From Closterium sp. NIES-65 (lineage: Eukaryota; Streptophyta; Zygnematophyceae; Desmidiales; Closteriaceae), in contig CANXME010000416.1 of the NCBI GenBank assembly GCA_948144175.1, positions 37,680 through 101,679 of the forward strand: DNA of 64,000 bases. Direction: 5' to 3'. A program made the translations under genes and the position numbers. The notes below the pieces were generated by a model. That model had not been told where the DNA came from and made no database searches. It worked only from the letters and a program-made list of their open reading frames with translations. Shown one piece after another: positions 3,664-50,936 of the stretch (positions within the stretch are counted from its first letter, which is position 1; each line of letters starts with the position of its first letter).

Positions 3664-6597
3664 GCCTGCTGGGGAACCAGGTTCGGCAGGGACAGGCTCG
3701 GATTGGTCAGGTTTGGCAGTCCCTGGAACCTCAAGTGGGTGTGCTATCTAAGAATACATGTCGCGGACATTCTATGGCTTACGTTTGTGGCTGTGACTAT
3801 AACGAAGCTTCTGCGTTTTGACCTTGAACTAGCCTTAAAGGTCGTCGCCCTGTCGATGCCTCTTGCTACAGAGTCTTGTCTATGAGTTTCGATAGCGCAT
3901 TCGCTTCTAGAACCAAGCCTATCAGTATGTCTGTTACTAGTGCTACTGCTATTTCTGTTACTAAATATAACAGACTTGCTTCTCTCGTTTCCGCTGCAGC
4001 ACGTGATCGGGTGGCTATTCGTTACTATCACAGTCAGCGACGTCGTCATGATCTGCGACAATAAGCAGCGACTGCGACAGAGGTGCGAGCGGTCAAAAGG
4101 AGCGACACTTTATAGAAATGGAAACGCGTGATGTCACGGGAATGGTGAACGTAAAGGTGTCTTCTGAGTGGACTCATAAGGAACGCTTGACACTACGGGA
4201 ATGGAGTTTGGCTTGAAGGCGAAGAGATGCTTGCGGTATCGTATCGCATGAGCTAGTACAAAGCCAATCCCAACGGAAATTGAAACCACGGTTTGCTAGT
4301 CACCAAATGACGTGTTGGATGAATATAAGAAGCGCGGTATGGACAAAGCAGGTTCTAGGTGAGGTAATCAGACAATATTAGTGAGTAGGTATCTGGTTGG
4401 TTGTAGGCCATTTTGTTTGAGAAAATGCCTGCGGGATGCTATGCCACCAACACCAGAGACGAGGTGGTGTTCCTGCTCCTGGTATCTCACCGTCCCAAAA
4501 CAGTACTCTTCGTCATTTGTTGTTTCATCAACCAGAAGCCACAACCCAGAATCCACCCAGTACAATGCGGCTGAGTGGCAAGTTCCGTAACTCGGGCACT
4601 CTCACGACATTTTTCTTTTCGACGCTTTGTTTCGAATACGCCTTGCAGAAAATGGCCCTTGAAATTGCCGAGACGCAGTAGCGTCGTGTGTACAGCGAAC
4701 TCAACTCACCCCGCCGAAGCAGACCGCAACCGCGTCAAAGCTGAATGGCTGTGTGGCCAATGACCATTCAATCGGTGCGGTCCTATTTGGCGGGAAGAGC
4801 TGGTCACTACCCTTCTACAATAAAGCTCGAGACTGGATTTCAACACCTTCAATAATAATAAATGAAGTAGCATATACTACATTTTGCCAACGCAAATCCT
4901 AAAAAACAAAGCACAATTACTTTGTGAGTGGCTGAATCTAGGAAACATACCGTACCCGCACAGCAACACCAGACGACAGGGCACCTGAAAAGCATAATGA
5001 GAACAGGTGAAGCACTGCTAATACTAAGGTCTGCGGCTGTGCGGGGCCACAGGTTCATCTAGCGGAGACCTCTATATGAAGGATGAATGCGGTCAGCCCG
5101 CGGAAACTCGCAGCTGGGCAGATAGCTGCGCAGAGGGCAAGTCGGAGGGGAGCTGGTGCATGGGATAATTGGGTTGAAACAGAGCCATCCAATCGCTGTT
5201 GCTGCTGCTGGGGTTGAGAATGGGATTCATGTACGTCTTACTGTGTTGAAGAATGGTAAGTTTGGTCCATAGTAAGTAGGCTTATGCTCGGGCGGGATTG
5301 GCTGGATGGCAGAAGGGATGAACGGATGGATGGGCGGGCTCTTGACGGATGTGCAGTGTGCACGCATCTTTCATGGTGGTCAATGGTGGTACATCGTAGT
5401 GCAGAATGGTGCTCACTGCTGCAAGGTGCTGCAAGGTGCTGCATGGTGCTGCATGGTGCCGCAAGGTGCTGCATGGTCAGCTCGCAGCAGCACAGCACAC
5501 ATGGCTGCCTGGTGAAAGGATGGGCGGTGGTGCATGGCACAATATGGAACGGATGGAAGGGAGCTGTGGGTTTGATGCTGGCTGGCAGACTGCAGTTATG
5601 AAATCGATGGTTTGATTGCACACACCCACACACGTGAGACGCCTTCTGTCTGAGGCAGCTAAAGAAACATGGGGCGGATGGAAGGGTGTAGCTATGGGTC
5701 AGATGCTGGCTGGCAGGCTGGCAGGCTGGCAGTGATAAAATGGATAATCCAATTGCGCACACCAACACATGGTGTTCCCTGCTCCAGCACACAGGCGCAG
5801 TGCTATCGCTGCCATTGCTGCTGTTGCTTCTGTCACTGCTATGCATGGTGCTGTGGTGGCAGTGTTTAATTGTGCTAGTGGAGGTGGTGTGGTGTGGCTG
5901 CTGCTCTTCACAGATGCTGCTGCTCTTCACAGATGCTGCTGCTCTTCACAGATGCTGCTGAAGATGAATAACTTGAATGAATGATGCCCCGCAGTGAGTG
6001 ATGAATTTGGTCGCAGTGGTTGACTCAGACTCTATATTTTCAGTCGACTCCAACTCAAAAGTCAGAAGTCATTTTGAGTCGACTGAAAAGTCGTTCTGGA
6101 GTGAGTGAGTGATGGAGATGGTTGCAGTCGTTGACTGAAAAATCATCTGTGGTCATGATGGATGGTCACTGTGCCGATGGTTGCTGTGATGGTCGCTGTG
6201 CTGATGGTCAATCTCCAGGCGCCTCATCAACACATTGGGGCGGCTGATGCCGTTGGGTGGCGGTGGAATGGCCAGATGGCATCTGAGGCGCCTCAAAAGG
6301 AAAACTACGAGGGGCAGTGGCAACAGTGGTGATGATTTCTTGGCCGCTTCAAAGACAAAACGTGGCTGCAGTGGTGTTGGGTGTCGTGGGAGTGGTGATG
6401 ATGGTGGTTGGTGGCAGGGAGCAGTCGTGATGATTCCTTGAGCAGCTCAGAGATGGAATGTCGCTGGTGGTGTTGGGTACCGTAGAAATTAGAACTGATC
6501 ACGATGGTTGGCGGCAGGGAGCAGTTGATCAACGGTGGTCATGAAACCCACACAGGGTACGGTACCCCCCTCAGCCAAGTTCCATCCGCCAGCCCAA
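3664..6597. other. Intergenic region, no gene recognised
   Basis: Lies between the start of the receptor kinase and the stop of the coiled-coil gene, both on the minus strand. It should contain the receptor kinase promoter and the other gene's 3' UTR. Local repeats are present: 10-bp GCTGCAAGGT-type units at 5411-5476, duplicated blocks near 5540-5620 and 5675-5760, three 16-bp GCTGCTCTTCACAGAT units at 5900-5955, and three related blocks at 6310-6540. Degenerate TTTTGAG...CTCAAAA palindromes occur at 6041-6057, 6072-6089 and 6283-6298. No open frame here shows a recognisable domain. Confidence 0.6.
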
Positions 6598-9500
6598 CTA
6601 CTTGCTCCGAATCGCAACCCGTGCAACCTGCTTCGGAGCCGGCCCCGCCCCCGGCCTCTTAGGCTCGTACCGCCGACCCCAACCACCGAACCACCCCCGA
6701 ACCAAGGCCACAAGAGGTGGAATAGAGACGGCAATGACCACTGACAGGAGCACATGGGTGATCCGGTTCTGCCTCTGCACTCTATGCACCATTTGCCTCA
6801 ACTCCTCCACCCCATCCTCCCCTTCCTCCTCCCGTTCCTCCACCTCCAACTGCTCCTGCTCCTCCTCTGGTTTTGTCCTTGGATTTCTATCCACAACCAC
6901 ACCCAGAGCGCCTCTTCTGACCACTGCTTCATGCGTCAAGTCGCCTCCCTTTCTTGCTGCTGCCACCACTCCACCTTCCGCCGTGCCTCTTCCAGTAAAC
7001 TTCGAGCCCAGAGCTGCTCCATTTAATTCGCCTTCCACTCCTGCTACTCTGTCCCCTCTTCCGCTCAACTGTGGTGATTGCTCCCTTTCGTCTTGATTTT
7101 GCCTCCCTGCTTGCTGCTCCTGGAAGAGGGCTTGCTGCTGCTGCTGCTGGCTGTGTTGGGAGGTGGCGCTGCTGCTGCTGGAGCGAGTGAGGGAGGCGGG
7201 GTCAGGGGAGGAGGAGGAGGCCACGGGGGAGAGGCGGAAGGAGATGGGCGACGAGGACACGAGGGACGGCGAGCGCTTGTGCTCGTCCATAGGGCAGGAG
7301 TTCTGGAGAGGCAGGGGGGGGAGGGAAGAGGGAGAAAGGGTAGAGGGAGGGAGGGGTGAGTTCGAGGCGCCTTACCCATGGGCGAGGAGGAGACGAGGGA
7401 GCGCGAGCGCTTGTGCTCGTCCATAGGGCAGGAGCTCTGGAGAGGAAGAGGGAGGGAGGGAGGGAGGGAGGGGGGAGTGGTTGTGATGTGATCGTCCATG
7501 GGGCTGGCGCTCTGGTGGGGCAGAGAACATGGCGGGTAGAGCGAGGGAGGGAGGGAGGGAGGGGGCACAACATGGGAGGGTGTTTGGGCACAGTGAAGAC
7601 GGGCGAGGATGACACGAGGGAGGGCGAGGATGACACGAGGGAGGGCGAGGATGACACGAGGGAGGGCGAGGATGACACGAGGGAGGGCGAGGATGACACG
7701 AGGGAGGGCGAGGATGACACGAGGGAGGGCGAGGATGACACGAGGGAGGGCGAGGATGACACGAGGGAGGGCGAGGATGACACGAGGGAGGGCGAGGATG
7801 ACACGAGGGAGGGCGAGGATGACACGAGGGAGGGCGAGGATGACACGAGGGAGGGCGAGGATGACACGAGGGAGGGCGAGGATGACACGAGGGAGGGCGA
7901 GGATGACACGAGGGAGGGCGAGGATGACACGAGGGAGGGCGAGGATGACACGAGGGAGGGCGAGGATGACACGAGGGAGGGCGAGGATGACACGAGGGAG
8001 GGCGAGGATGACACGAGGGAGGGCGAGGATGACACGAGGGAGGGCAAGGATGACACGAGGGAGGGCGAGGATGACACGAGGGAGGGCGAGGATGACACGA
8101 GGGAGGGCGAGCGAGCGCTTGTGCTCGTTCTGGGGTTCACACATGAACGTTCTGGGGTTCACACATGAACGTTCTGGGGTTCACACATGAACGTTCTGGG
8201 GTTCACACATGAACGTTCTGGGGTTCACACATGAACGTTCTGGGGTTCACACATGAACGTTCTGGGGTTCACACATGAACGTTCTGGGGTTCACACATGA
8301 ACGTTCTGGGGTTCACACATGAACGTTCTGGCGTTCACACATGAACGTTCTGGGGTTCACACATGAACGGTTCTGGGATTCACACATGAACGTTCTGGCG
8401 TTCACACATGAACGTTCTGGGGTTCACACATGAACGTTCTGGGGTTCACACATGAACGTTCTGGGGTTCACACATGAACGTTCTGGGGTTCACACATGAA
8501 CGTTCTGGGGTTCACACATGAACGTTCTGGGGTTCACACATGAACGTTCTGGGGTTCACACATGAACGTTCTGGGGTTCACACATGAACGTTCTGGGGTT
8601 CACACATGAACGTTCTGGGGTTCACACATGAACGTTCTGGCGTTCACACATGAACGTTCTGGGGTTCACACATGAACGTTCTGGGGTTCACACATGAACG
8701 GTTCTGGGATTCACACATGAACGTTCTGGCGTTCACACATGAACGTTCTGGGGTTCACACATGAACGTTCTGGGGTTCACACATGAACGTTCTGGGGTTC
8801 ACACATGGCGTTCTGGTGGGGCAGAGAAAATGGGGGGTAGAGGGAGTGAGTACAGCAAATAAGATTGAGTGAGTGAGTGAGTGGGTGAAGGGTAAAGAGG
8901 TTGAGGGAAAGAGGAGGAAGAGGTTACTTCATTACTATCACCATATACCATCACCACCAGACCAGACAACATGATCACCGCATACCAGCATGGCGGCCAT
9001 CTTTGCCTCCAGAAGCTGCACCTGCACTGCTCGCCATGAGAACTAGTGCGTGCACCGATGCATATATCACAGCCACATCCCACCTTGCCTCACCACATTC
9101 CACCGCACAGCATCACATACCAGCATGGCGGCCATCTTCGCCTCCAGCAGCTGCACCTGCACTGCTCGTTGCTCTGCCTCCCTCTCTGCCTTCTCTGCCC
9201 GCCTCTCTGCTGCCTGTGGGGGAGGGAGGCACAAAGACAGACAAGCAGAGAGGTTGCAGGGGTGGGAAGAGGGAGGGAGGAAGAAGCTTCCTTCCTTCCG
9301 CACCTTATCTGCCCGCCTCTCTGATGCCTGGGGCAGGAAAGGAAAACGATGCCTCCTTTGCCTAAGAAACTGGGACAGAAAAAAAAGGAATGAGGCCTCA
9401 TTGCCTAAGACCCATAAACCTTCAACACCCCTGCACAGCATTACGGAATTGGGACTGTGGTGTGCAAGACCCTGCTGTTCCCACAACCCACGACAGTTGA

Positions 9501-12500
9501 ACTCCATGCCTCCACTCCTCCTATTAGCTGAGGTTGTTTTTGAGACGTCTCAAAAACAACCTCGCTTCACATTGGCTGGGGAGAGTTTTTGAGACGTCTC
9601 AAAGACAACCTCGCTTTACTCGATGCCTCCACTCCTCCTATCAGCCGAGTTACATCCTCCTGAGTGAGAGACGCCTGGTCAACACCTCTTGCAGCTCCTC
9701 ACAGCCCCAGCCACCTGCATACCTCTCCAGCTCTCACCCTCCAGCAACCTGCACAACTCTCACCCTCCCTCCCCCAACGAGGTGACTTTTGAGTCGACTC
9801 AAAAGTCGCCTGCTCCACCTCTTGCAGCTCCTCACAGCCCCAGCCACCTGCATACCTCTCCAATGCACAACTCTCCCACCCTTCCTCCCCCAACCCCCAA
9901 TCCACCCAAACAACGCACCCCCCATCCCAGCCGTGTTACGCCCTCCTGAGGGAGCGACACCCGGCCCAGCTTCAGCAGCTCCTCTCCTCTCCTCACCTCA
10001 CAGCCTCAGCCCTGCCTGCCCCTCCCTCACAGCCTGTATTGAAATCACTTTTGAGAATTCTCAAAAGCTTCAGCAGCTCCTCACCTCACCTCACCTCACA
10101 GCCTCAACCCTGCCGGCACCTCCCCCACAGCCTGTATAACTCTCACCCTCCACCCAACTGCCGCCCCGCTCAGAGCCCCCACAAGCGCACCTCCACGGTC
10201 TCCATGAGGCGAGTGACGTCCTCCTGGGTGAGCGACGCCTGCCCCAGCTCCAGTAGCTTCTAGCTAGCCTCATCCCCCATACCTCTCCTCTCCAGACCCC
10301 CCTACAGCCCCCCCCAGCGCACCTCCACGGTCTCCATGAGGTGAGTGACGTCCTCCTGAGTGAGCGACGCCTGCCCCAGCTCCAGTAGCTCTTAATATCG
10401 CCAACCCCATACCTCTCCCGCCCATCTCACAACCCCTCTCACAGCCTCCACCTCCCCACACACCCTCCAAGCGCACCTCCACGGTCTCCATGAGGCGAGT
10501 GACGTCCTCCTGAGTGAGCGACGCCTGGCCCAGCTCCAGAAGCTCCTGCACCACTGACTCGTCACACTCCATCTGATATGGCGAAGGGGGGAACAGGGAG
10601 AGGCAGACAAAGGGGAATGGAGCCCTGTTGACGCCTGCCCCAGCTCCAGTAACTCGTCTACCACTGACTCGTCACACTCCATCTGATGTGGCGGAGGGGG
10701 GAACAGGGAGAGGCAGACAAAGGGGAATGGAGCTCTGTTGACGCCTGCCCCAGCTCCAGTAGCTCTTGTACCAGTGACTCGTCACACTCCATCTGATGGG
10801 CGGAGAGGAAACAGAAAGTGTGCCGGGGAGGGGGAGGAGAAAGGGGAGCAGGGGAATGGCAGGGACGGGACAACAAGGGCGTTACGTTCAAATACCACGG
10901 CACAGGCATGGCATGGCATGACGGGCATGGCAGGGCAGGGCATGGCATGGCATGGCATGGCATGGCATGGCATGACGGGCATGGCATGGCATGGCATGGC
11001 ATGGCATGGCATGGCATGGCATGGAATGGCATGGCATGGCATGGCATGGCATGGCATGACATGACTCACCATGACAGGGGTGGTTGCTCGGCCTGGTGCA
11101 TCCTCATCACTGTCGTTGCTGTGCCTGCTCAAGCAGCAGCAGCAGCAACAGCAGTGAGGAAAGAAAGACAACAGATCACTTAAGTCGACTCAACATGCCC
11201 TCGAGTCAGCTGAAAGATGAGATCATCGTCATCACTCAACTGTTGAACAGTGCACTGCTGAGTTTTGAGGCGCCTCAAAACAATTCTTGAGGCGCCTCAA
11301 AAATCGACTCAAGATGCCCTTGAGTCAGCTGAAAGATGAGATCATCTTCATCACTCAACTGTTGAACCGTGCACTGCTGTTTTGAGACGTCTCAAAACAC
11401 TACTTCAAACACTGCAGTTTCAACTGCGTACCTCCTCGCTGCTCTCTGCGTCCCTGCTCTCTAAACCCGAGCCCCTAAACCCTCAACCCTCCCCAACTCT
11501 CTGCTTTTAAAGCTGCCTTTTCCCGCTAGAGACATGCCTGACGCCTCTGACTCCCACCGGCTCTCTTTCTGGGATTCCCTTAAGCTCACCGCTCGCTCAC
11601 CCCCTTCCCCTTCATGCGTTTCCTCAGTGCATCCCCTCCCCTCACTCCGTCTGGTGCGTCTCTTTCTTCTCTCACTCCTTGCACTGTCGCCTCACGTGCA
11701 GTGAGGTGTATTTTGAGGCGCCTCAAAATACACCTCACTGTCCTCTCCTCAGTGCATCCCCTCCCCTCACTCCGTCTGGTGCGTCTCTTTCTTCTCTCAC
11801 TCCTTCAACTGTCGCTTCACCCCTCAAGAGCCTTGAATCACCGCCTCCCACCCACCTCTCTGCGTCTCTGCTCTTGAAGCTGCCTTCTCTCGCTGGTGAC
11901 ATACCAGACGCCTCTGACTCCCACCGGCTCTCCACTTCCACTGGGGGACCGTGGACGGAGGTCGGGGTAAGAAGGTCAGGGGTAGGGGAGGAGAGGGCGG
12001 GTGTGGGGAGTTGACTTTTGCGTCGACTAAAAAATGTCTCTGACTCCCACCGGCTCTCCACTTCCACTGGGGGACCGTGGAGGGAGCTCAGGGTAAGAAG
12101 GTCCGGGAGGGGAGGAAGGAAGTGGGGAGAGAGCAGTGAGTGCAGGGATGAGGGCGTTTGTAGAGGGCAGAAGCACACATGCTGTGCACAGCACTATACA
12201 ATACACCCATTATTTTCTTTCAACAGCGACACAAGCATATCAAACCCAACTGCCCCCTCTGCAGTAGAATACGCACCTGGCCCCTGCAGTCACCTGTCCC
12301 CTCCCCTCACTTCCCCCCCCCCCCCACCTCACCTGCACTGCAAACCTCACCTGCCCTCTTTGCTCACCTGCCCCCTTTGCTCACCTGCCCCCTTTGCTCA
12401 CCTGCGCCCTGCTCCAGGCTGCGGTAGAGCTCAAAGCGCAGCACCTCTCTACACCCTCCCTGCGCAACATGCACCAGACACGTCTGCCCCCTGCGCAACA

Positions 12501-15377
12501 TGCACCAGACACGTCTGCCCCCTGCGCAACATGCACCAGACACGTCTGCCCCCTGCGCAACATGCACCAGACACGTCTGCCCCCTGCGCAACATGCACCA
12601 GACACGTCTGCCCCCTGCGCAACATGCACCAGACACGTCTGCCCCCTGCGCAACATGCACCAGACACGTCTGCCCCCTGCGCTAAACACCCCTCACCTGC
12701 GCCCTGTCAACCGCACCCCTCACCTGCGCGGCTGCTCCCACCCTCACCTGCGCCCTGCCCCCCCTGCCCTCACCTGCGCCCTGCCCCCCCTGCCCTCACC
12801 TGCGCCCTGCTCCAGGCTGCGGTAGAGCTCAAAGCGCAACACCTCGGATTTGGCCAGCTCGTCCCGCAGACGAGCACACTCCACCTGCCACGACACGCAC
12901 GCACATGGGAGAGAGGGAAAGAGGGGCATTTTGAGTCGTTTAGGAATACAGCTCGTCCCTGCATGGTGTGCACACACACACGCACGAACGCACGCGTGCA
13001 CACATGCAGGGAGGCAGAGACGGGGCGAGCAAAGGCTCACACAAGTCGTGTTCTGAGTCGACTCAAAACACAACAACCCCCTCACCTGCAGGGCGAGCAC
13101 GCCAGAGTCATCGAGCTCCTCCAGTCGCTCTTCCAGCAGCGCCTGCACCAACACGGGATTCATCTCCGCTGCCCTCTCGCCCGCCCTCCGCTTCCACTCG
13201 TCTGTGCACCCACGGTAGGGAGAGGGGGTGGTGAGGGTGGGAGGGGGGGGGGGGGGGGGGAGAGGGGGGGGTTGAGGGGGGAGGAGAATCTGAGTCATCG
13301 AGCTCTTCCAGCAGCGCCTGCACCAACACGGGATTCATCTCCGCTGCCCGCTCCCCTGCCCTCCGCTTCAACTCATCTACGCGCACAGGGGTGGGGGGGA
13401 GGAGGGGGGGGGTGGGGGTGGAGGGGTCGAGGGGGGGAAGGAGGAGTCATCGAGCTCCTCCAGTCCCTCCTCCAGCGCGCCGGGTTCATTTCCGCTGCCC
13501 GCTCCCCCGCCCTCCGCTTCCACTCCTCTGCGCACCCAGTGAAGGGGGGGGGGGGGGAGAGGATAAGGGGAGATGGGGGAGGAAGAGAGAAGGGCAAGAG
13601 AGAGAAGGATTTGAGACGTGTCAAAACTCGACTGCTCCAACGCTGTATTCATCTCCGCTGCCCGCTCGCCCGCGCTCCGCTTCCATTCCATGTCTCTGTT
13701 CTGTGCGCCCAAGGGTAGGGTGGGGGAGAGGGGGAGGGAGAGGGGAGGAGGGTAATAGGAGGAAGGATTTAAGACGTCTCAAAACAAGGCTGCGCCAAGG
13801 TCTAATGCTCGCTCGCCCGCCCTCCGTTTCCACTCCTCTGCACACACACCAGGGAGGAGAGTGGGGGGAAGGAGGGAAGGAGGGGAGTAGGAAAGGAGTC
13901 TAAAACTCGTCAGCACCACGGAGGCAATGGGATGCCCTCGAGTCGACTCAAACCACATCTTAGATGCGCAAGCAGGGCAGGGCATGGCACGGCACGGCAG
14001 CCCACTCACCGCAGCGAGAGGCCATGGCTTGCAGCTCCATCTCCAGCGCTGCTGCTTGTGCCCTCGCCTCCTCCACTTGCTTGTCCTGCCAGCCCAACCA
14101 CATCAATCACATCACAGCAATCACATCAACCACGATATGGACGCTTCAAAAACCATCTCCAGCGCTGCTGCTTGTGCCCTCGCCTCCTCCACCCATCTGC
14201 TTGTCCTGCCAGCCCAACCACATCAATCACATCACAGCAGACCGGCGAGGCGAGGCAACGAGACAGATTCGATGCTTGACAAAACTAACAAGGGAACGGA
14301 ACAGCGAAGAGACAAACGAGCCCTAAAATGTGCAACCGGAAAGGCAATGTAGCAACAGCGTGGTGAATGAAGGGCGCCATGTTTCCCTCGAGGCACCTCA
14401 CAAAACGAAAGGAGGTGTAAGTCGTTGGATGGCAAGAGGAAGGGCTCACAGCAGGGGTGCCATTCTTGAGCTGCTCCTGTAGTAGCAGGTCCTCTAAGGC
14501 GTCCCTCTCCTCGCACACCTGCACGCACGCATGGTCACAAGTATCATGTGGGACAAACAATGTTAGAGGCGAGTCGATTAAAGCAGCTCCTGCAGTAGCA
14601 GATCTTTCAAGGCGCCCCTCTCCTCGCACACCTGGACGCATGGTCACGGAGTCACGAAATTCACAAGGGGAGGCACATATGACTGCATGATGGGAATGCA
14701 CGACGGAAAGGCATGACCGGAATGCATGACGCGAATGCATGAGGGGTATGCATGATGGGAATGCATGATGGGAATGCATGAGGGGAATGCATGAGGGGGC
14801 ATGAGGGGAATGCATGATGGGAATGCATGAGGGGAATGCATGATGGGAATGCATGATGGGAATGCATGATGGGAATGCATGAGGGGAATGCATGATGGGA
14901 ATGCATGAGGGGAATGCATGATGGGAATGCATGATGGGAACGCATGAGGGGAATGCACGACGGGGATCAACGCTGGGAATGCACGACGGGAACGCATGCG
15001 CGTGAGACCATGCGAACACACAGATGCATCAGCGGGCGGTTACACATCGAATACTGCCTGTGAACCAACAGTCACATCAACGTGAGAAGGTACAGGACGG
15101 ATATGCGAGCATACGTTGATACAGATACGGATGAGTGCAAAACTACAGTCACCCTGAACCGCGTACAGACTGCATTATCATACATGAGGTTTCAAACATG
15201 GAGCTGAACCCTAGAAAAAAGCAACAGAAACGTTGAACGGTAAAGCGACATTAACGAGGACCAATACTTACGAGAATAGCGCGCGGACAGGGCGACGCGG
15301 AGACACACCTGTTGGTAGCTCGCTCGAAGCTCCTCTAGCTCTCTTCCCATGTCCGATAAGCTGTTGGCCGTTGGACC
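6598..15377 (-). CDS. Coiled-coil, tail-anchored membrane protein (ten exons; 5' end uncertain)
   Basis: Minus-strand exons with GT/AG borders: 15309-15377, 14450-14518, 14010-14085, 13086-13201, 12800-12884, 11856-11940, 11070-11124, 10464-10572, 9121-9209 and 6598-7302. Their phases join without a break, giving 486 codons including the stop. The chain is rich in heptad-like helices ([50 protein letters not shown]). It then has a Ser/Gln-rich stretch, an acidic helix ([18 protein letters not shown]), one membrane segment ([19 protein letters not shown]) and about 36 basic residues. This suggests a C-terminally anchored coiled-coil protein of an inner membrane or the nuclear envelope. I do not recognise the family. 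The first exon was not settled; ATGATGGCGGCAACC at about 15836-15822 is a weak candidate. Nearly every exon has truncated copies in the adjoining introns. Confidence 0.72.
7371..7520 (-). repeat. Truncated copies of the last exon's 5' end
   Basis: 7371-7446 repeats acceptor plus about 70 nt of the last exon ([10 protein letters not shown]...) and ends in a donor-like Ggtaagg. 7493-7520 is a shorter, diverged copy (ASPMDDHIT). Confidence 0.85.
7602..8112. repeat. 21-bp minisatellite derived from coding sequence
   Basis: About 24 copies of a 21-bp unit (gaggatgacacgagggaggg plus c). On the minus strand it reads as repeated SPSLVSS codons, matching the start of the last exon of the coiled-coil gene ([11 protein letters not shown]). 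The array lies in the intron just upstream of that exon. Confidence 0.95.
8127..8806. repeat. 22-bp minisatellite (gttctggggttcacacatga + ac)
   Basis: About 31 nearly identical 22-bp units abut the 21-bp array in the same intron. On the minus strand every unit contains ccccagAACG, which resembles the acceptor and first bases of the last exon (ctccag|AACTCC), so each unit is a potential pseudo-acceptor. Confidence 0.95.
8985..9335 (-). repeat. Partial copies of exon 9121-9209
   Basis: 8985-9045 repeats the 3' part of the exon with its gtatg donor context (LEAKMAAML). 9310-9335 repeats the 5' part with an acceptor (SERRADK). Confidence 0.8.
9530..9563. repeat. 34-bp perfect palindrome, core GAGACGTCTC
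   Basis: Perfect inverted repeat centred at 9546/9547. The core is TTTTTGAG-ACGT-CTCAAAAA, with arms extending to gaggttg/caacctc. It lies between two direct copies of a block (starting 9506 and 9623). A second, shorter palindrome (16 bp, 9588-9603) with the same core lies in the same gap. Confidence 0.95.
9780..9811. repeat. 32-bp palindrome (one mismatch), core GAGTCGACTC
   Basis: The inner 24 bp (9784-9807) is perfect. It sits exactly between two direct copies of a block of about 100 bp (starting 9683 and 9816). Confidence 0.95.
10048..10067. repeat. 20-bp perfect palindrome, core GAGAATTCTC
   Basis: CTTTTGAG-AATT-CTCAAAAG. The left copy of a direct repeat starts at 9970 and the right copy starts at 10068, immediately after the palindrome. 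Confidence 0.95.
10188..10794 (-). repeat. Tandem partial copies of exon 10464-10572
   Basis: Acceptor plus 5' exon part ([17 protein letters not shown]) is repeated at 10740-10794 and 10629-10683, at exactly 111-bp spacing from the full exon. The 3' exon part ([20 protein letters not shown]) is repeated at 10318-10394 and 10188-10262, with decayed versions near 9936-9990 and 9650-9690. Only the central copy has both an acceptor and a donor. Confidence 0.9.
10905..11061. repeat. (GGCAT)n pentanucleotide array
   Basis: About 30 GGCAT units with few interruptions, ending a few bases from the donor site of exon 11070-11124. Confidence 0.95.
11262..11300. repeat. Two adjacent palindromes, core GAGGCGCCTC
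   Basis: 11262-11281 is a perfect 20-bp palindrome (GTTTTGAG-GCGC-CTCAAAAC) and 11287-11300 a perfect 14-bp one. They separate two direct copies of a block of about 75 bp (11184 on and 11302 on, period 118). Confidence 0.95.
11378..11399. repeat. 22-bp perfect palindrome, core GAGACGTCTC
   Basis: TGTTTTGAG-ACGT-CTCAAAACA, at the end of the second copy of the 118-bp-period block. Confidence 0.95.
11450..12080 (-). repeat. Partial copies around exon 11856-11940
   Basis: 12038-12080 repeats the exon's 5' part with its acceptor ([10 protein letters not shown]). 11450-11580 repeats a diverged 3' part ([10 protein letters not shown], then KGSFKSR). A degenerate palindrome at 12012-12034 (core GCGTCGAC) lies at the upstream copy junction, period 126. 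Confidence 0.85.
11699..11740. repeat. 42-bp perfect palindrome, core GAGGCGCCTC
   Basis: Centred at 11719/11720. The core is TTTTGAG-GCGC-CTCAAAA and the arms run outward through GTGTA and GTGAG to a terminal CA/TG. The left flank block starts at 11622 and its direct copy at 11747 (period 125), so the palindrome occupies the junction of a tandem duplication. This is the longest palindrome of the family here. Confidence 0.97.
12404..12800. repeat. Copy of exon 12800-12884 and 31-bp tandem array
   Basis: 12404-12452 repeats the exon's 3' end and donor on the minus strand ([13 protein letters not shown]). 12461-12680 holds seven 31-bp units containing catgcaccagacacgtctgc. 12690-12800 and 12350-12410 repeat donor-like ctcacctgcgccctg. 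Confidence 0.9.
13048..13071. repeat. 24-bp palindrome (one mismatch), core GAGTCGACTC
   Basis: Lies 15 bp from the donor of exon 13086-13201. Related copies with the same core type are at 13610-13626 (ACGT), 13768-13783 (ACGT), 13937-13951 (TCGA) and 15497-15514 (ACGT). The first two separate truncated copies of this exon. Confidence 0.9.
13290..13850 (-). repeat. Four truncated copies of exon 13086-13201
   Basis: Copies at 13290-13385, 13446-13535, 13640-13712 and 13800-13850 repeat [13 protein letters not shown] and variable lengths of [12 protein letters not shown], mostly with acceptor-like contexts. Homopolymer G runs and TTTTGAG-type palindromes lie between them. Confidence 0.85.
14154..14632 (-). 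repeat. Partial copies of exons 14010-14085 and 14450-14518
   Basis: 14154-14217 repeats acceptor plus 5' part of the first exon, with a degenerate palindrome remnant (gacgcttcaaaaa) at the junction, period 116. 14585-14632 repeats the second exon ([17 protein letters not shown]) and is preceded by a decayed gagtcga motif. Confidence 0.85.
14690..14990. repeat. 13-bp tandem repeat (ATGCATGATGGGA)
   Basis: About 22 units of a 13-bp motif, sometimes ATGCATGAGGGGA, in an intron of the coiled-coil gene. Confidence 0.9.
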
Positions 15378-16769
15378 CTGGTGGCAGCGAAGAGGTACGC
15401 GAAAGTGGGTAACGAGACGTATATCGTCTACGTGTGCGTGATCGGGGGATCGGAAATAGTAAGACTCGCGAGAAAGGAGGATCGCTTTGGAATGCGTTTT
15501 GAGACGTCTCAGAAGCAGGTGTGCGGTATAGGACAACGGATGGGATAGCTCGACAAAGAGATGAAAGAGCTGTTCAAAGTGCCGACATACAAGAAACGAC
15601 CGCTCCGAGATTTCGTTACAAACCGGGGAGGCCTACGCTGCAGCGCAAGACATGCACTACAAACGCATCGCGGCTCTGACATCACAAAAAAACTGGAAAG
15701 AAAGGTGTCAACGGACACATCAAAGGAGGCGTATCAGCGGACGCATCGGAGATGCATATACACGGAGGGCTGTAAGAGAATAAGGACTAGCCTGTGGGAC
15801 GTAGTACGAAGCCATGGTTGCCGCCATCATCTGAGTGTTGCTCTCATGAAAGCAGGAAAGAAAGGTAACCTCTAGACCAGAAGAACCCAGGGGAGGACGT
15901 GGATGTGAGTATGCTTTGGGGTATGTGATAAATGTGAGCCAGACGAAGCAGGAAGAGCCGTTGAGTGCACTGAATGCATGTGTGGATTGGAGTGGATATG
16001 ACTTTCTGCGCTTTGCCGAACCAGGTGGGTTTGGTCCATGGCGGAAGGGCTTACGGCTGCCGAACCTGATTTGTGATGCGAACCTGCGGTTCATCAACAC
16101 CCCAGTTGGTCTGGTGAGGTACTGCCACATGGAGGATCCGCCAGCCGTGATGGGGGAACGAGGCGAAATCTGGCGAAGGAATTTGGCGATTCCACCGACC
16201 TGGACACAGTCACAAGGAACTGCGCCACATCTCCTGCCTTTTGGTTGTGGTCAGCCTGTGGCGTTGTGTCTTCGTTGGTTCGTTGGTTGGTTGGTTCGTC
16301 GAGTTTGCTCCCGTTCGGAAATGTCTTGTTTTGTCTGGTCACGTCGAAATTGACGCTCTTGCGCAAATAGCGGCTTCGTGTCTTCGGGTTCAGCCTTGTA
16401 CAGTACCCTTCTCGTCGTCACCACTCTGGTCCGGAACTTCGGAATTACGGCGTACGGTCAGGAGGGCCCGCCCGTTACACTCACGCGTCGTATCGTAGAA
16501 GCAACTCTGGGTGCTGAAAGCGCCTGTGTTAACGGCGGACATCCCTCGAACAAAACCCCATTTTCTCCGACCCCTCTAAAAGGTCATCGAAACGACGCAC
16601 CTTGAAGCTACACGCTGAGTAGTTGTGTCAATAAAGCATCACAGGTTAGCATAAAACAAATCAAGCCGCTCCATTTAGGTCGTCTGAGAGATACAGCAGG
16701 TAAGAATACTCCTGGTCCATTGTTGGACTTCACCAGTCTCGCCTCACCTCTGCAACATTTCCTTTGAGG
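15378..16769. other. Upstream region of the coiled-coil gene, unresolved
   Basis: Probably holds the 5' exon(s) and promoter of the minus-strand gene. A short frame at about 15795-15836 (MMAATMASYYVPQ) could be the start, but its donor would be a non-canonical GC. An open frame on the plus strand at 15916-16353 has no recognisable domain. No RNA gene was seen. Confidence 0.4.
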
Positions 16770-16774
16770 CAGCG

Positions 16775-17101: not shown

Positions 17102-17102
17102 C

Positions 17103-18454: not shown

Positions 18455-18513
18455 CAGACGGGCCCCCTACTGACAGGTCACGCCGCTCGCCCGACCCAAC
18501 CGACCCTCACCGA

Positions 18514-21500: not shown

Positions 21501-21942
21501 AGATTACGTGCTGCTCGACACGCAAAATCTGCGACTGCCCGACGTACCGAAATTACGACCGCGCTACTGTGGACCATTCCAAATCAGTCACATGATCACA
21601 CCCGTCACCGCACACCTCCTGTTGCCAACCGACTGGTACATCAGCCCTTCGTTCCACGTCAGCCTACTTCGCCCATACGTCCCGACCACAAGTCAACTGC
21701 CGCGTCACCGCCCACAATCAATGACTCGCCCTGCATCGGAGCCGATCATCGAGCCCGAAAAAATCCTAAGCCATCGGATCCGCCACCCCACGGGAATCAG
21801 GAGGATTGAATTCCTCGTTCGCTGGAAGGACCGCACGCCAACTGAAGACAGCTGGGTGCCCCTGCCCAACATCGAAAACCACTCTGCCCTGCAAGTGTAC
21901 CTGAGGAGCCGGGGATTCCGCGATATACACGCACTCGCGTAG
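18514..21942 (+). pseudogene. Pol of Ty3 copy 1, broken by a nonsense codon
   Basis: Protease (VDGGASHSLI, a DGGA variant of the usual D-S/T-G-A), then an in-frame TGA at 18766-18768 where copy 2 has CGA. After it the frame stays open to 21942. It carries RT (MPFGLTNAPATFQ; YLDDILIYS), RNase H (TDASDIAVGAVLL), the integrase zinc region (HFGVEKT ... CPTCQ), a DDE core (MDFVTGLP; SDRDTKFTS; TDGQMERTNQ) and a C-terminal chromodomain (EFLVRWKDRTPTEDSW). The chromodomain marks it as a chromovirus, a clade whose integrase reads histone marks. With the stop, protease would be separated from RT/IN unless read through. Confidence 0.93.
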
Positions 21943-21974
21943 CGGAGGGGGCTTCTTAAGGGGGGGGGGGGTAG

Positions 21975-37420: not shown

Positions 37421-37479
37421 CAGACGGGCCCTCTACTGACAGGTCACGCCGCTCGCCCGACCCAACCGACCCTCACCGA

Positions 37480-40400: not shown

Positions 40401-42451
40401 CCAACTTGACCGAGTTGCAGAGTTTCCTGGGGTTCGTCAACTACGTGCGCCGGTTCGTCCCCGACATGGCGAAGCTGACTGCCCCGTTGACTGACCTGCT
40501 GAGGAAGGGGGTTGAGTACACGTGGGGGGAGAAAGAGCAAGCTGCCTTCTCGGCCCTCAAAACTATTTTGTGCTCCCCGCCCGTCCTTCACATTGCAGAT
40601 CCCCACCGTCCGTTCGAGCTCGTCACCGACGCAAGTGACATCGCTGTGGGAGCAGTACTGTTGCAGGATTTCGAGAACGGCCTCCAGCCAATCGCGTACG
40701 AGTCCCGCAAGTTACACCCGCCCGAACGTAACTACCCGATACACGACCGCGAGATGCTAGCGATCGTGCACGCGTTCAAAGTTTGGGGATGTTACCTGAC
40801 TGGCGCCGACGTGACAGTACGGACAGACCATCGCTCGCTACAGTATCTTCGCGCCCAACCGAATCTCAACCCACGACAGATTCGCTGGTTGGACTATCTC
40901 GAGTCCAATTTTCACTACACCGTTACGTACAAAAAGGGTGCATCCAACATCGCCGACGCTCTCACCCGCCCCACCGCCCAACTCCATGCCATCCTACTCG
41001 CCCAGACCAACCCGCTTTTAACTGGCCTATTCACCCACGGATACCGCACCGACACATTTTTCACGACCGGAAATTCACAGCAACTGGCAGAAGCAAAAGG
41101 AGTCTATTACGTAAAAGCAGGCACCAACCGCATTTGGGTACCCGCGTACTCACTACTGAGGGAGCTGCTACTACAGGAGGCACACGACGGGATTACCTCG
41201 GGACATTTCGGGGTAGAAAAAACGCGACAGCAACTGCAGCGGTACTATTACTGGCCGGAGCTGTTGACCGACGTACAGCAGCACGTGGGCTCGTGCCCGA
41301 CGTGTCAGGTGATGAAGAGTTCAAGGAAGCGGAAGGCGGGTCAATTGCAGCCGATCCCACCGCCCGAACGCGCTTGGCAGCAAGTAACCATGGACTTCGT
41401 CACAGGGTTACCTTCGAACCCTGGGGGTAACGACGCGGTGATGGTCGTCGTGGATAGGCTGACGAAGATGGCACACTTCGCTGCGTGCAAAAAGTCGATC
41501 TCAGCCGAGGAGACCGCTCGCCTGTTCATCGCAGCCGTTGTTCGCCTGCACGGGATACCAGCAGCAATTATCAGCGACAGGGACACGAAATTTACCAGCA
41601 ACTTCTGGAAGAACCTCTGGGAGCAGTTCGGGACCAGGCTACAGTTCAGTTCGTCGTACCACCCCGAGACCGACGGCCAAACGGAGCGGACGAATCAGAC
41701 GATGGAGCAGTTGATTCGTGCCACGTGCGACGACCCCACGACCTGGGAGCAGCAGCTGCCGCTGATCGAGTTCGCGTACAACAACGCCACATCAGCCATG
41801 ACGCAGCAGTCCCCGTTCTACCTGAACTATGGGCAAAACCCCACAGTGCCCATGACGCCGAGTCCGGACAACCCAACGCCACGCGCACAACAATTCGCCG
41901 AAATCCTGCAAGCTGCCCGCGCCAGAGCCGCCGAAGCAATAAAAAAGGCCAACGTCATCGCTAAGCGCAACGCTGATCGCCACCGCCGCCCCGTCACGTA
42001 TCAATCTGGAGATTACGTGCTACTCGACACGCAAAATCTGCGACTGCCCGACGTACCAAAATTACGACCACGCTACTGTGGACCATTCCAAATCAGTCAC
42101 ATGATCACACCCGTCACCGCACACCTACTGTTGCCAACCGACTGGTACATCAGCCCTTCGTTCCACGTCAGCCTACTTCGCCCATACATCCCGACCACAA
42201 GTCAACTGCCGCGTCACCGGCCACAATCAATGACTCGCCCCGCATCAGAGCCGATCATCGAGCCCGAAAAAAATATAAGCCATCGGATCCGCCACCCCAC
42301 GGGAATCAGGAGGATTGAATTCCTCGTTCGCTGGAAAGACCGCACGCCAACTGAAGATAGCTGGGTGCCCCTGAGCAACATCGAAAATCACCCTTCCCTG
42401 CAAGTGTACCTGAGGAGCCGGGGATTCCGCGATATACACGCACTCGCGTAG
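37480..42451 (+). pseudogene. Pol of Ty3 copy 2, split by nested LTR element
   Basis: The protease part (37480-37776) keeps the CGA codon that is a stop in copy 1, but the frame is broken by the nested element at 37777. RT, RNase H, integrase and chromodomain continue in an open frame after 39314 to 42451. Motifs are as in copy 1 (YLDDILIYS, TDASDIAVGAVLL, SDRDTKFTS, TDGQTERTNQ). Confidence 0.95.
37777..39314 (+). mobile_element. Non-autonomous copia-like LTR element nested in Ty3 copy 2
   Basis: 130-bp LTRs at 37777-37906 and 39185-39314 (TGTCAGAATG...TTTTGACA) are almost identical. The target-site duplication is AGGAA. A PBS (TGCTATCAGAGC) follows the 5' LTR and TATGGGGGTG precedes the 3' LTR as polypurine tract. 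The interior has no pol genes: it holds GC-rich tandem units around GGCGGTTTTCTGCCC (38030-38250) and a 3' block that is also present next to the 3' LTR of the copia element at 57581. It is therefore a deletion derivative (LARD/TRIM-like). Confidence 0.93.
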
Positions 42452-42481
42452 CGGAGGGGGCTTCTTGAGGGGGGGGGGTAG

Positions 42482-42808: not shown

Positions 42809-42851
42809 GGTTGGGAGGGAAGAGAGCAAACCCACTGCTTGCTTTGTTTTT

Positions 42852-43271: not shown

Positions 43272-43299
43272 TTTTTTTGGGCATCCACTGTTGTCAGTG

Positions 43300-44205: not shown

Positions 44206-47200
44206 ATGTCGCGCCTAGTTCCTCTGCGGCTCCACCTCCTCCTCCTTGCCGCCCTCGTCCTCCTCGTCGGTACGTACCTCCGCACTGCCCGCACTGTTCC
44301 ACTACCGAGGTTACGCAAATTAGTTCGCTGTTCTGTTATCGAGCCTGCGCAAATGAGTTCGCTGTTCTGTAATCGAGTTTGCGCAAATGAGGGGAGCGCG
44401 GAGCAATGAGGGGAGCGCGGAGCAATGAGCGGAGCACGGACACGTTACATGTGCCTCCTCTCCTTTGTGCAACTCGAGGCTGACCGCGTTTCTTCTATTA
44501 TCGGCGTGCTCTTCCTCGCGAGGCGCCAAAGTTTCATACTCCTCCTCACGCTTTCAAACTCCGCCCCCATTCGCCTGTCGTTCCTCAATTCGCCTCGCGC
44601 CCATATTTTTGCTCCTCCACGACCCACCTCCCCCTCCTTTTCCTCTACTCTTCCCCACCCCCTCCCTCCCTCCCCCCCCCCCCTTCCCTCCCCACACCCT
44701 CCTGTTCCTCCTCTCCCCTCCTTCCCTCTTTCCGCAATCCCCGACTTCCCCCGCCGCATACCCGCTGCTCACGCGTGCTCTTCGGCGACGACTTTCAACG
44801 TCATTCGCCGCTCGCTCCTCCTCAGGCGGCGCCGAGGCACAGGTATGCCTACGTGGACGGACTCGCATGCAACCTCGTGTGCATGCGAGGAGGCACATTC
44901 GCGACATGCGAGAACGTACGTTCGCGACATGCGAGAAGGCACATTCGCGACATGCGAGGAGGCACATTCGCGACATGCGAGAAGGCACATTCGCGACATG
45001 CGAGGAGGCACATTCGCGACATGCGAGAAGCCACATTCGCGACATGCGAGCAGGCAGATTCGCGACATGCGAGAAGGTACATTCGCGACATGCGAGAAGG
45101 CACATTCGCGACATGCGAGAAGGCACATTCGCGACATGCGAGGAAACACATTCAAGAAATTCGTGGAGCCGCCTCCTTTCCCTTCCCCTCTGCTTCTTCC
45201 CCCTCTCCCTCGCTATCCCCTCGTCGCCTTCATCGTAGATTCGCGACATGCGAGGTGACATGCTCGTACTGCTTCCCTTCTCTCCCTCACCCCTTCCCTT
45301 CCATCTCAATGCTCTCTTCCTCCTTATATCCCTTTGCTTCCGCCCCCCTCTCTACGTTCGCGAAGCTTTGAAGAAAAAACGAAACGTTCGCGAAGCTTTG
45401 AAGAAAAACGAAACGTTCGCGAAGCTTTGAAGAAAAACGAAGTTCTAGCGAACCTTGCTCGCCAATGACGCGAAAGAAAGGCCTCTTCGGTTCAGGATCG
45501 CGACGTTCAACTAATTATGTCTCCCTCCCGCCTCTCTCCCTCCCGCCTCTCTCCCTCCCGCCTCTCTCCCTCCCGCCTCTCTCCCTCCCGCCTCTCTCCC
45601 TCCCGCCTCTCTCCCGCTCGCCTCTCTCCCGCCCCTCTCACTCTCAACCCTCCGCCCCCTCTCCCCGCGGACTCATCAAATTTCCCCCCTTCTCCCCACC
45701 CCCTTTGCCCCCTCTCTCCACGTGCAGAAAATTGTGTACGTGGGAGGCAGCTCGAACCGGTTGTTTTCCCTGTGAGGCTGGTACCGAGTCGACTCAACAA
45801 GACTCCCTCCTCCCCCAATTCGCCCCTTTGCCCCCTCTCCCCGCGTGCAGAAAATCGTGTACGTGGGAGGCAGCTCGAACCGGTTGGTGTCCCATGGGGT
45901 TTCGCAATGAAGGACTGGAAGGCACCCAAGGTGCTGCCTGGCGACAGCCTAGGTACGCATGCTCCTGCGGGTGTGTGTGAGTGTGAGTGTGATGTGTGTT
46001 GTGTGGTGTACGAATGATGTGCGAGTGTGTCTGTGTGTATGTGGGTGGCTGTCCCCGTGCCGTTTCGTGATGAAGGACTGGAAGGCACCCAAGTTGCTGC
46101 CTGGCGACAGCCTGGGTACGCCCGTGTCCTGATGTGCGTGTGCTGATGTGATGTGCGTGTGCTGATGTGCGTGTGCTGATGTGATGTGCGTGTGGTGATG
46201 TGCGTGTCCTGATGTGCGTGTGCTGATGTGATGTGCTGCGCGAGTGTGTGGGTGGCTCCCTCACTGCCTTCCTCTCTGTCTTCCTGCCTGCAGTGTTCCA
46301 GTGGTCGGGAGAGGTCCATTTGGTGCACAAAGTATCACACTTCACTTGAGAAGGATGTGTAATACATGTAACTCCCTGCCCCCCGCGTCACGCAGTGTTC
46401 CTACCCCTCTGCCCTCCTTGCCCTCCTACCCCTCTGCCTGCAGTGTTCCAGTGGTAGGGCGAGGTGCACAAGGTCAACGCGGCTGAGTAAGCTGCATGCA
46501 CGTTTGTCAACTCCTTTCCCCCCCTCCCTCCCTCCCTCCCTCCCTCCCTCCCTCCCTCCCTCCCTCCCTGCCCCCCTGCCCCCCTGTCTGCAGTGCTCCA
46601 GTGGTCGGGCGAGGTGCACTCGGTGCACAAGGTCAGCGCGGCTGAGTGCGCTGCATGCACGTTTGTCAAGGCGAAGCAGCTCGTGCGCAACCGCAACTAC
46701 GGGAGCAGCTACTGGTACAAGGCGGTTGGAACGGAAAGGACTGCAGCAACACGACAGACCACTAGCCTGTTTTCGAGGTGCACATGTCATCATAATTTCT
46801 CCCCATTCACCTTCCCCCCAACCCCCCCTGTCCCCCCCTGCGCCCGTGCCGTGCCCGCAGTGTTCCAGTGGACGGGCGAGGTGCACTCGGTGCACAAGGT
46901 CAACGCGGGCTGAGTATGCTGCACGCACGTTTCTCCACCCCTTACCCTTCCCCCCCATCCTCCTGTCCCTTGACCCCTTACTGCTCCCACACCCTACCCG
47001 CAGTGTTCCAGTGGACGGGCGAGGTGCACTCGGTGCACAAGGTCAGCGCGGCTGAGTATGCCGCATGCACGTTTGTCAAGGCGAAGCAGCTCGCACGCAA
47101 CCGCAACTACGGGAGCTACTGGTACAAGGTGAACTGGAGGGAGTACGGCAAGACCATCTACTTCAGCAGCAAGGCCAACAAGGACTGCAGCCTCGGGATC

Positions 47201-48630: not shown

Positions 48631-50936
48631 ATGGCGCGCGCAACCAATCATCTGCGGCTCCTCCTTGCCGCACTCGTCCTCCTCGTTGGTACGTGCTTCC
48701 ACTCATCTCGTGCGATCGGTACGTGATTCTGGGGACCGCCCGTGCTGTTCTACTTATCGATGTGCTCTCCCTCTCGAGGCGCCATCGCGTCCTACTCCTT
48801 CTCACGCTTTGAAACTCCGCCTTACCCTTTTACTATACTCAGTCCTACCAGCTTTCGAAGTCAGTCCTACCGCGCTCAAACGCGGCATGTACCACTGCTT
48901 CCGTCTGCTCCGCTTTCTCTCCACATTCCTCCACACACCGTACTACGGCGAATGTCTAACGCACGTCGCATCTACTCGCAAGGCTCCTTCTCCCTCCCCA
49001 AATCGTCCCATTCCCTCACGTTTCTCAATCCGACTCGCGCCCATACCATGTTACTCTCCGCTGGTTTCTGAGAATTTTCAAAATCCAGCTTCTCGCTCCC
49101 CAGATAGTCCCTTTCCTCACGTTCCTCAGTTCGCCTAGCGCTCATGTTTTCCTCTTTTCTCACCCGCGACCTTCTCCTCCTCCCCCCCTTCACTCCTCCG
49201 GCGACGCCCTACCCCTCCCCCTTCCGCAATCTCCGATGTGCGCCCCGTGCCCGCGGCCGCCGATGTCCGCCTCTCCGGCGACGATGATCAACGGTCACCG
49301 CCATTCGCCCGCTCGCTCCTTCTCAGGCAGCGCCGAGGCGCAGGTAGGGCTGCGAGAAACATTCGCCAAGTTCGAGAAACCACGTTCGCATATTCATAGA
49401 AGCACTTCCGTCTCTCCCCACCCCCATCTCCTCATCTCCCGCACCCTTCCCCTCCTCCCCTTCCTCTCGTAAGTGAGACATGCTCGTTCTGCTTCCCTTC
49501 TCTCCCTCACACCCCTCCTGTTCCCTCCGAGGGAGTCCCTCCTCCCTCCCTCCCGTTCTTGCTCCTTCCCCTCCGTCCTCGCTATCACGCTCATCTCCCT
49601 CCCCCCCTCCTCTCTCTCCCTTTCCTCTCCCCGCGTGCAGGAATTGGTGTTCGTGGGGAGCAACAACGGCACGTGGCTGTCCCCGTGCTGCTACCTTAGG
49701 AGTTGACTCAAGAACTCCCCCGAACTTATGTGCGGCTCTGCCCCCGCCCCTCTATTCCTCTCCCCTTGTGCAGAAAGTGGTGTATGTGGGGGGCAATAAC
49801 GGCCGGTGGCTGTCACCATGGGGCTTTGCGGTGAAGGACTGGAAGGCGCCCAAGGTGCTGCCTGGCGACCTGCTAGGTACGTCCGTGTCCGAGTTGGGTG
49901 CTGCTGCTGCTGCTGCCAGCTTGGTACTACCGCCCAAGTGCAGCAATTGACAATGGTGTGTTTTCGAGTGGGCGGGGAGCGGTAACGCTGTCAGGAAGGA
50001 ATTTTGATTGCAAGATTTACAACCCAGGTCTGATCTTGGACACCGGGCCTGATCTGGCACACCGGGCCTGATCTGGCACAGCCGGGCCTGATCTGGCACC
50101 ACCGGGCCTGATCTGGCACACCGGGCCTGATCTGGCACACCGGGCCTGATCTGGCACACCGGGCCTGATCTGGCACACCGGGCCTGATCTGGCACACCGG
50201 GCCCTGATCTGGCACACCGGGCCTGATCTGGCACACCGGGCCTGATCTGGCACACAGTGAAAACACCGGGCCTGATCTGGCAACACCGGGCCTGATCTGG
50301 CACACCGGGCCCTGATCTGGCACACCGGGCCTGATCTGGACACACCGGGGCCTGATCTGGCACACCGGCCTGACCTCTGCCCCACCTCCTCGGGCTGCTC
50401 TAGCACACCGGGCCTGATCTGGAAGCACAGCACACCACAACCACCAACTCTGGTCTTTGAGTTTTTAGGGTTAAGTAATGAATTGTGGCTCAAGGGCTGA
50501 GGCTCACCAGCTGGCGCAGGGCAGAGTGCAGAGCAGGTAGTGCAGAGTGAATCACATCTACAAGGTGGCGCCAGGGCACTACGGCATGTTCGGCAAGATG
50601 ACAGACAGAGCTCTCGAGTGTAGATATTGATCCCAGAATGACAGCTACCGTCTCCTGCCCTTGATATCTCCCTCCCTCCGCTCTCCGTTACCTGTAGTGT
50701 TTCCAATGGGTGGGCGAGGTACACTCGGTGCACAAGGTTGACGTGGCGGATTACACTGCATGCACGTTCCTCAACGCGAAGCAGCTCGCACGCAGCCGCA
50801 ACTACGGAAAGTACATCTACAAGGTGGTGCCAAAGATTACGGCAATACCATTTATTTCAGCAGCAAAGCCAACAGTGACTGTAGCGACGGGATCAGGCGT
50901 CATTTGTTGTTGGATCGTAACATTTTTGTTTGAATA
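48631..50936 (+). pseudogene. Phytocyanin-like gene B, decayed
   Basis: Same exon plan as gene A: 48631-48688 (signal peptide LRLLLAALVLLV), 49327-49343 (17-nt microexon), 49774-49876 (KVVYVGGNNGRWLSPWGF ... VLPGD) and a terminal exon from 50698. Exons 1-3 join in frame. The terminal exon carries one extra base right after the acceptor (FPM in place of FQW) and a second frameshift near 50835, before the YFSSKAN-like end. It would not give a full phytocyanin domain. A truncated copy of exon 3 at 49641-49700 ends in an imperfect palindrome (GGAGTT ... AACTCC). A fragment of exon 4 lies near 50550-50610. Confidence 0.75.
50034..50425. repeat. 19-bp tandem array (CACCGGGCCTGATCTGGCA)
   Basis: About 18 units with small indels, in the last intron of gene B. 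No similar block seen in gene A. Confidence 0.95.

Follow-up and report, generated by a model that had tools for sequence, protein, structure and literature searches.

A short palindrome family and its flanking direct repeats in the nuclear genome of Closterium sp. NIES-65

Our analysis concerns a 64,000-nucleotide stretch of the desmid Closterium sp. NIES-65 (contig C416:37680-101679 of an 874-Mb assembly in 2400 contigs; hereafter the window) and a short palindrome within it, with the 18-bp core TTTTGAG-N4-CTCAAAA, that recurs across the genome and tends to lie where two direct copies of neighboring DNA meet. We lean toward the view that it represents a mobile palindromic family of the Closterium nuclear genome, inserting at staggered breaks that are then filled in. 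To our knowledge, no nameable mobile element matches a pattern in which a palindrome sits between copies of its target. No report of this combination was found in the titles and abstract openings of the best-ranked literature, which did not cover most subscription journals, and the main text of a genome study of Closterium strains, (Kawaguchi et al. 2023, PMC10407611), does not contain the word stem "palindrom."

Abundance and anatomy of the palindrome

A first-pass annotation of the window had picked out the palindrome as a marker of duplication junctions, and it proved to be real and genome-wide: the search pattern TTTTGAGNNNNCTCAAAA has 30,327 exact matches in the 874 Mb, against 4 for the same pattern reversed, and the version with a TCGA center has 13,080 against 0. 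Within the window, TTTTGAGNNNNCTCAAAA matched at 19 places with up to 3 mismatches, 6 of them exact, compared with a mean of 2.06 and a maximum of 6 in 100 shuffles at the same threshold. The longest perfect palindromes of the window (34 bp at 9530-9563 and 42 bp at 11699-11740) are both family members, and stretches of ~27-48 bp matching the latter occur at many further places. The structural work covers ~0.3 Mb of the 874 Mb and is enriched in copies, comprising a nonrandom 264 kb (the window plus 200 kb picked at listed copies) and 47 kb from five arbitrary contigs, which held one decayed copy; labels of the L011 type denote sampled stretches. Near-palindromes of the family number 87 in the 264 kb, and the other 34 found there are at chance level (five Markov copies gave 18-38), with no further palindrome family rising above chance in this DNA. 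The shuffles, the reversed control, and the Markov copies together rule out a chance origin.

Several other sources were considered and rejected. In the sampled DNA, TTTTGAG occurs on either strand 159 times inside palindromes or near-palindromes and 49 times outside them, where the count for the reversed 7-mer plus its complement is 29. A remnant of excision or a circle junction derived from a larger transposon is rejected because half-sites are too rare, and no longer relative was seen. A viral source was discarded because GACTTTTGAGTCGACTCAAAAGTC has no exact match in viral contigs. At gathering score, Rfam gave no match in the window to described structured RNA families, and no palindrome-encoded peptide was present in the 120 Closterium proteins fetched.

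The 57 exact sites reduce to 42 when those less than 120 bp apart are merged, and in 38 of these the four central bases are self-complementary (TCGA in 19, ACGT in 9, GCGC in 7, and AATT in 3). Each of the remaining centers (TTGA, TCAA, ACAT, and AATC) lies one transition from a main type, three of the four corresponding to a CpG changed to TpG or CpA. The earlier description of the center as any 4-bp palindrome was therefore too broad, as the 42 exact-arm sites have four types only and CCGG is found at none of the sampled sites; the expectation that the center is always self-complementary holds for all but the four sites that are one mutation away. Past the core, the arms extend by a length that differs per side and per copy, up to ~19 bp further, and the inserts, which are noncoding, measure 18 to ~56 bp. 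The constant part is the center alone; the outer limits differ between elements and between the two sides of each, in place of the conserved termini of miniature inverted-repeat transposable elements (MITEs) or terminal-inverted-repeat (TIR) transposons. A conserved center with frayed ends is the reverse of ordinary transposons. Nor is there the single fixed 3' end of long and short interspersed nuclear elements (LINEs and SINEs), since on either side the insert may end with the core or continue beyond it. Farther out, at 633 + 603 places in the genome, a spacing of exactly 12 bases separates CACGTG from the core (reversed control, 0 + 0), and the 12 intervening bases differ between copies at the 13 listed places shown with their letters.

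The two arms of an element agree at 3.77 of 7 positions, compared with 2.85 when right arms are shuffled inside the same center type (60 sites with at most 1 mismatch, arrays merged; 0 of 5,000 shuffles reached the observed value). Because a palindrome's own arms agree better than those of sisters with the same center, each palindrome appears to be made from a single arm sequence.

The family is hairpin capable and dispersed, and it falls within the 10 to 100 nt of organellar short palindromic repeats. Those of Volvox carteri mitochondrial and plastid DNA, as described in PMC2670323, are 14-79 nt long and form hairpins whose loop motif recurs while their stems vary in length; they are very abundant in noncoding and intronic DNA and are called selfish, their mode of spread being given as unknown. 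The likeness is that both are short palindromic repeats of similar size. The Volvox repeats, however, fill organelle genomes, with nuclear copies taken as inert transfers, and the word "duplication" appears 0 times in that paper (PMC2670323), whereas the Closterium copies are nuclear, number ~30,000 when exact matches are counted, have a different sequence, and in the sample are for the most part flanked by direct repeats. Their residence is also unlike that of organellar repeats: Ty3 elements are found on the same contig as the window copies, and one sampled copy adjoins a channel exon.

Flanking direct repeats and other local duplications

Direct repeats meet at the palindrome in 27 of 37 exact sites by an ungapped test (score of at least 14) and in 12 of 40 sites with 1-2 mismatches; random positions pass the same test in 262 of 1,500 cases, a high rate that we attribute to the many tandem repeats. 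With gaps allowed, at score 20 and with arrays included, 69 of 115 palindrome sites pass, against 38 of 400. Block length ranges from 16 to 93 bp in the 39 sites passing the ungapped test and reaches 107 bp in the window when gaps are allowed, so that the 60-100 bp originally given for the duplicated target was too narrow. A list of near-identical blocks contains 25 cases, 7 of which look like array members by eye; the other 18 have blocks of 19-75 bp and inserts of 15-53 bp, and the larger block values in the list (91-149) come from arrays. At L033:98-115, a bare 18-bp palindrome stands between identical 30-bp copies, an arrangement equally readable as 15 new bases between 33-bp copies because three bases are shared.

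These lengths differ from the fixed, short target-site duplications of MITEs and TIR transposons. MITEs and the introners of Amoebophrya resemble the palindrome family in being noncoding and intronic, with inverted repeats and direct-repeat flanks, but in the passages of PMC7789003 that describe them the direct repeats are 10-15 bp for MITEs and 3-5 nt for the introners, in contrast to the 16 to ~100 bp, constant center, and frayed ends seen here. Variable duplication length is a property of LINEs and SINEs, and one could imagine an ultrashort form of target-primed retrotransposition, in which a hairpin RNA is reverse transcribed at a nick by a LINE-type enzyme and a distant second-strand cut gives the long, variable target copy. 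Truncated-arm subfamilies would fit such a process, and very distant staggered cuts, of 126 bp, are made by the rotifer retrotransposon R9 of this class (PMC6895275). R9, however, is a retrotransposon of ribosomal DNA, whereas the Closterium inserts are noncoding palindromes of 18 to ~56 bp at scattered sites with variable duplications. A retrotransposed copy should moreover keep its 3' end, but neither end of the insert is fixed and the conserved part is its middle, which leaves this origin improbable.

The more decayed a palindrome is, the more diverged its blocks tend to be (Spearman −0.45, p = 0.005, n = 37 spaced duplications with at most 4 mismatches). Tandem arrays in which block and palindrome together form the unit occur at L011:7990-8155, L014:1439-1668, L014:6184-6464, and L021:8134-8319, with periods of ~37, 53, 24, and 42 bp, from which it follows that palindromes also seed minisatellites. 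Dimeric proteins typically bind perfect palindromes and CACGTG is a known plant motif, and on both counts the palindrome might be a protein-binding or regulatory site under selection, its flanking duplications being unrelated. We give this very little credence, as it is at odds with the placement of 27 of 37 exact sites at a junction, with decay that proceeds along with the blocks, and with the tandem arrays.

A more serious challenge comes from local duplications in general. We surveyed 165 nonrepetitive two-copy duplications within 400 bp (311-kb sample), of which 36 carry the palindrome with at most 2 mismatches and 129 do not, so that duplication does not depend on the palindrome, a result that counts against a mobile family. 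Spacers shorter than 20 bp are rare (7 of 165; spaced examples are L010:2369-2582, L018:6347-6566, and L023:1596-1842), and those of at least 20 bp often lack any recognizable element. A direct duplication interrupted by inserted bases is what tandem duplication with filler produces, and the first-pass annotation had itself offered a repair scar as one explanation. It would work by template switching at staggered breaks, leaving block, filler, and block, with hairpin-forming or breakage-prone palindromes as the commonest source of filler. The preponderance of duplications without a palindrome favors this account, as does the rarity of short spacers, which makes filler the rule, and the frayed outer ends fit copying from variable entry points. 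Fill-in at staggered breaks is, moreover, documented to yield tandem duplications in mouse and human cells (PMC8355091). The likeness to the present case is that offset nicks and fill-in give a direct duplication, but the duplications in the relevant sections of PMC8355091 have no constant insert, whereas in Closterium one palindrome family recurs.

Filler taken from anywhere in the genome should rarely be one 18-bp sequence, yet among 103 duplications with spacers of 15-120 bp the palindrome is present with 0-2 mismatches in 26 (2.3 expected from random stretches) and exact in 19 (1.1 expected); with 1-3 mismatches it is present in 9 (1.6 expected), and more distant forms are near background. 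Inverted repeats (p ≤ 0.04) occur in 11 of 92 nonpalindromic spacers against 30 of 32 palindromic ones, and the search for a motif common to the nonpalindromic spacers gave only low-complexity sequence among its 15 best pair matches. The fixed center and the scarcity of half-palindromes would also need a separate reason under repair filling. With most local duplications having other spacers, the repair scar stays a serious rival, one we consider possible though doubtful. Either many older palindromes have decayed past recognition, or a general process of duplication with filler has the palindrome as its favorite filler. By eye, the spacers of two unrelated duplications, L007:1879-1916 and L010:8219-8250, are alike (AAGGTGATA...ATAAGC) and are possibly a second, nonpalindromic filler family.

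Single-block neighbors and a proposed route of insertion

If the palindrome arrived together with a duplication, related sites that it had not entered should hold one block. We compared 45 palindromic duplications with the fetched sequence and inspected eight comparisons, in all of which the inferred empty site gives the neighbor a better score than the filled site does; the result is clean for two insertions only. For the insertion at L011:9237-9379, the neighbors L011:9780-9960, L012:32-203, and L011:9540-9625 hold one block joined to the flank and no palindrome, the first two being nearly identical tandem copies 252 bp apart on contig C6. For that at L022:4153-4233, the neighbor L022:4350-4559 likewise holds a single block joined to the flank, without a palindrome. 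Other candidates were set aside: 45803-45957 of the window, proposed as the empty site for 49622-49814, belongs to a paralogous filled site, of which it forms the right-hand block; L018:6368-6566 contains its own spaced duplication; and the comparisons for L019, L021, and 9968 of the window are not clean.

Junction position, the age correlation, and single-block paralogues at two sites make a palindromic insertion that duplicates its target the best fit, as first proposed, with the size range and the nature of the center corrected as above. Several observations nevertheless weigh against it. The flanks are not always direct repeats: at score 14, a junction repeat is missing from 10 of 37 exact sites and present at 12 of 40 decayed ones. 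No target-site consensus emerged from the 50 half-sites of the 25 near-identical-block cases, in which no position exceeds 50% of one base and 7 of 25 look like array members by eye. The age correlation falls to rho −0.34 (p = 0.065, n = 31) at 0-2 mismatches, and four exact palindromes have blocks 75-83% alike, which a shared clock does not predict. The empty-site neighbors are diverged tandem paralogues at two sites only, two of them near identical, and five other comparisons are unclean or poorly aligned. No partner enzyme emerged either, although no search aimed at one was made. Finally, where contigs C291 and C2137 could be aligned, no polymorphic empty or filled allele was found.

In aligned bases, these two contigs are ~1% and 0.5% different from the window. 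Over 6896-13786 and 9703-13787 of the window they show no indel of at least 8 bp that removes a palindrome; 29 bp of the block at 9969-10039 are missing from both. C291 and C2137, together with C464, C1658, and C347, are near-identical copies of sampled regions, which implies that the assembly holds alleles or recent duplicates. The draft genome is highly repetitive, as would suit an assembly artifact, but the persistence of the palindromes in two other contigs and the point mutations by which the blocks differ from each other make an artifact the least credible of the explanations considered.

Under the insertion reading, arrival would take place at a break or a pair of nicks ~16-100 bp apart on opposite strands, and fill-in of the single-stranded stretch on both sides would double the target and leave the palindrome between the direct copies that are observed. 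Work with paired nicks in plants is reported to show that offset nicks followed by fill-in give a direct duplication. Each 3' end may carry one copy of the same arm, with the ends joining through the self-complementary center; joining of this kind would explain the fixed center, the frayed and independent outer ends, and the better arm match within an element. More tentatively, we suggest that the family could constitute a new class of mobile DNA whose heritable unit is half a palindrome: at a staggered break, both ends would receive a copy of the arm and, being identical, would be joined through the self-complementary center, each insertion remaking a perfect palindrome, duplicating 16-100 bp, and, in genes, being able to give spare splice sites and lengthen introns. 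If the insertion reading is true, the 18-bp form would be among the smallest mobile sequences known, and its signature of a constant center, frayed ends, and a long, variable target copy would be missed by repeat finders tuned to fixed target duplications. It would also suggest that, in this algal relative of land plants, gene interiors are duplicated piecemeal, and would offer a natural archive of offset-nick repair in such cells.

Splice sites and further copies in the window

The exon copy that holds the L011 insertion is related to plant cyclic-nucleotide-gated channels; its neighboring copy has a Protein Data Bank match to CNGC15b (E 2e-6). The duplicated block contains GTGAGT after ...GVWYILSVD; judging from the sequence, the exon-side copy keeps this donor, and the palindrome and second copy would fall into the intron. 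In the window, both blocks of 45700-45893 and of 49622-49814 contain GTGCAG and an apparent exon start, and the palindrome follows the first block; we read GTGCAG in the former as an acceptor site, and the second block of the latter continues in the open frame KVVYVGGNNGRWLSPWGFAVKDWKAPKVLPGDLL. The two loci are paralogous and probably share one ancestral insertion. A duplicated target in a gene can, on this reading, bring a spare splice donor or acceptor. A case described in PMC4974935 is similar in that a duplicated segment brings existing splicing signals, but it is a single case, and the passages covered mention no palindrome at the junction. Where splice sites are seen they lie in the duplicated block, and an insert may consist of nothing but the 18-bp core, an arrangement unlike that of introners, which bring their own splice sites.

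Harmless removal by splicing is called into question at three filled copies. That of L011 is frame-shifted upstream of the block relative to its neighbor and for this reason may be dead; the window copy at 45.8 kb has a one-base gap relative to that at 49.8 kb; and the block at L022:4153-4233 lies, by eye, in a coding-like stretch to which the palindrome would add a stop. Such frame-shifted, gapped, or stop-bearing filled copies may be dead exon copies. An "acceptor" at L022:4153 was dropped because its paralogue reads through. Tandem channel exon copies of the CNGC type, with a donor site, lie 252 bp apart at L011:9540-10000 and L012:1-220, and 9640-10590 of the window holds, by eye, about five decayed copies of one exon end plus donor in a row, as if repeatedly duplicated.

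All nine block pairs named in the first-pass annotation are real direct repeats, most of them with a palindrome between. At 9501-9649, blocks 9501-9532 and 9618-9649 enclose the 34-bp perfect palindrome (9530-9563) and a second one at 9588-9603. At 9672-9894, blocks 9672-9778 and 9807-9894 flank a TCGA palindrome (9784-9807) whose imperfect arms run outward, and at 9969-10137 an AATT palindrome (10048-10067) separates blocks 9969-10039 and 10067-10137. The region 11182-11399 contains block 11182-11260, GCGC palindromes at 11262-11281 and 11285-11302, block 11301-11379, and an ACGT palindrome at 11378-11399. Within 11621-11820, the 42-bp perfect palindrome (11699-11740), which has a GCGC center, lies between blocks 11621-11695 and 11746-11820, and within 11912-12116 a decayed one (12016-12033, 2 mismatches) lies between blocks 11912-11992 and 12038-12116. 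The duplication at 14037-14239 (14037-14119 and 14153-14239) is the exception, its spacer (14119-14153) containing no recognizable palindrome and at best 6 mismatches. Degenerate palindromes are present in the spacers 45770-45823 and 49681-49755: at 45700-45893, one with the core GAGTCGACTC (45782-45799, 4 mismatches) separates blocks 45700-45770 and 45823-45893, and at 49622-49814 another (49696-49713, 3 mismatches) separates blocks 49622-49681 and 49755-49814. A tenth duplication, at 48987-49145, has a decayed palindrome (49066-49083) between blocks 48987-49044 and 49089-49145. No flanking repeat was found at the copies with 1 mismatch at 6072-6089, 13051-13068, and 15497-15514 or at the decayed copies at 4162-4179 (2 mismatches), 6281-6298, 13609-13626, and 13767-13784.

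All 19 window copies fall outside 15600-45000, the region of two Ty3-type retrotransposons with a chromodomain (17285-21942 and 36260-42451). Among the best 120 of 7,978 matches, the proteins closest to the Ty3-type reverse transcriptase come from Closterium sp. NIES-53, 54, 67, 68, and Yama58-4. A Copia-type reverse transcriptase fragment (RVT_2) lies on the minus strand at 58454-59425. The window also contains long minisatellites at 7601-8816, 12458-12682, 38006-38171, and 56424-56599, with units of 21, 22, 31, and 36 bp, the first of which is ~700 bp longer in contig C291.

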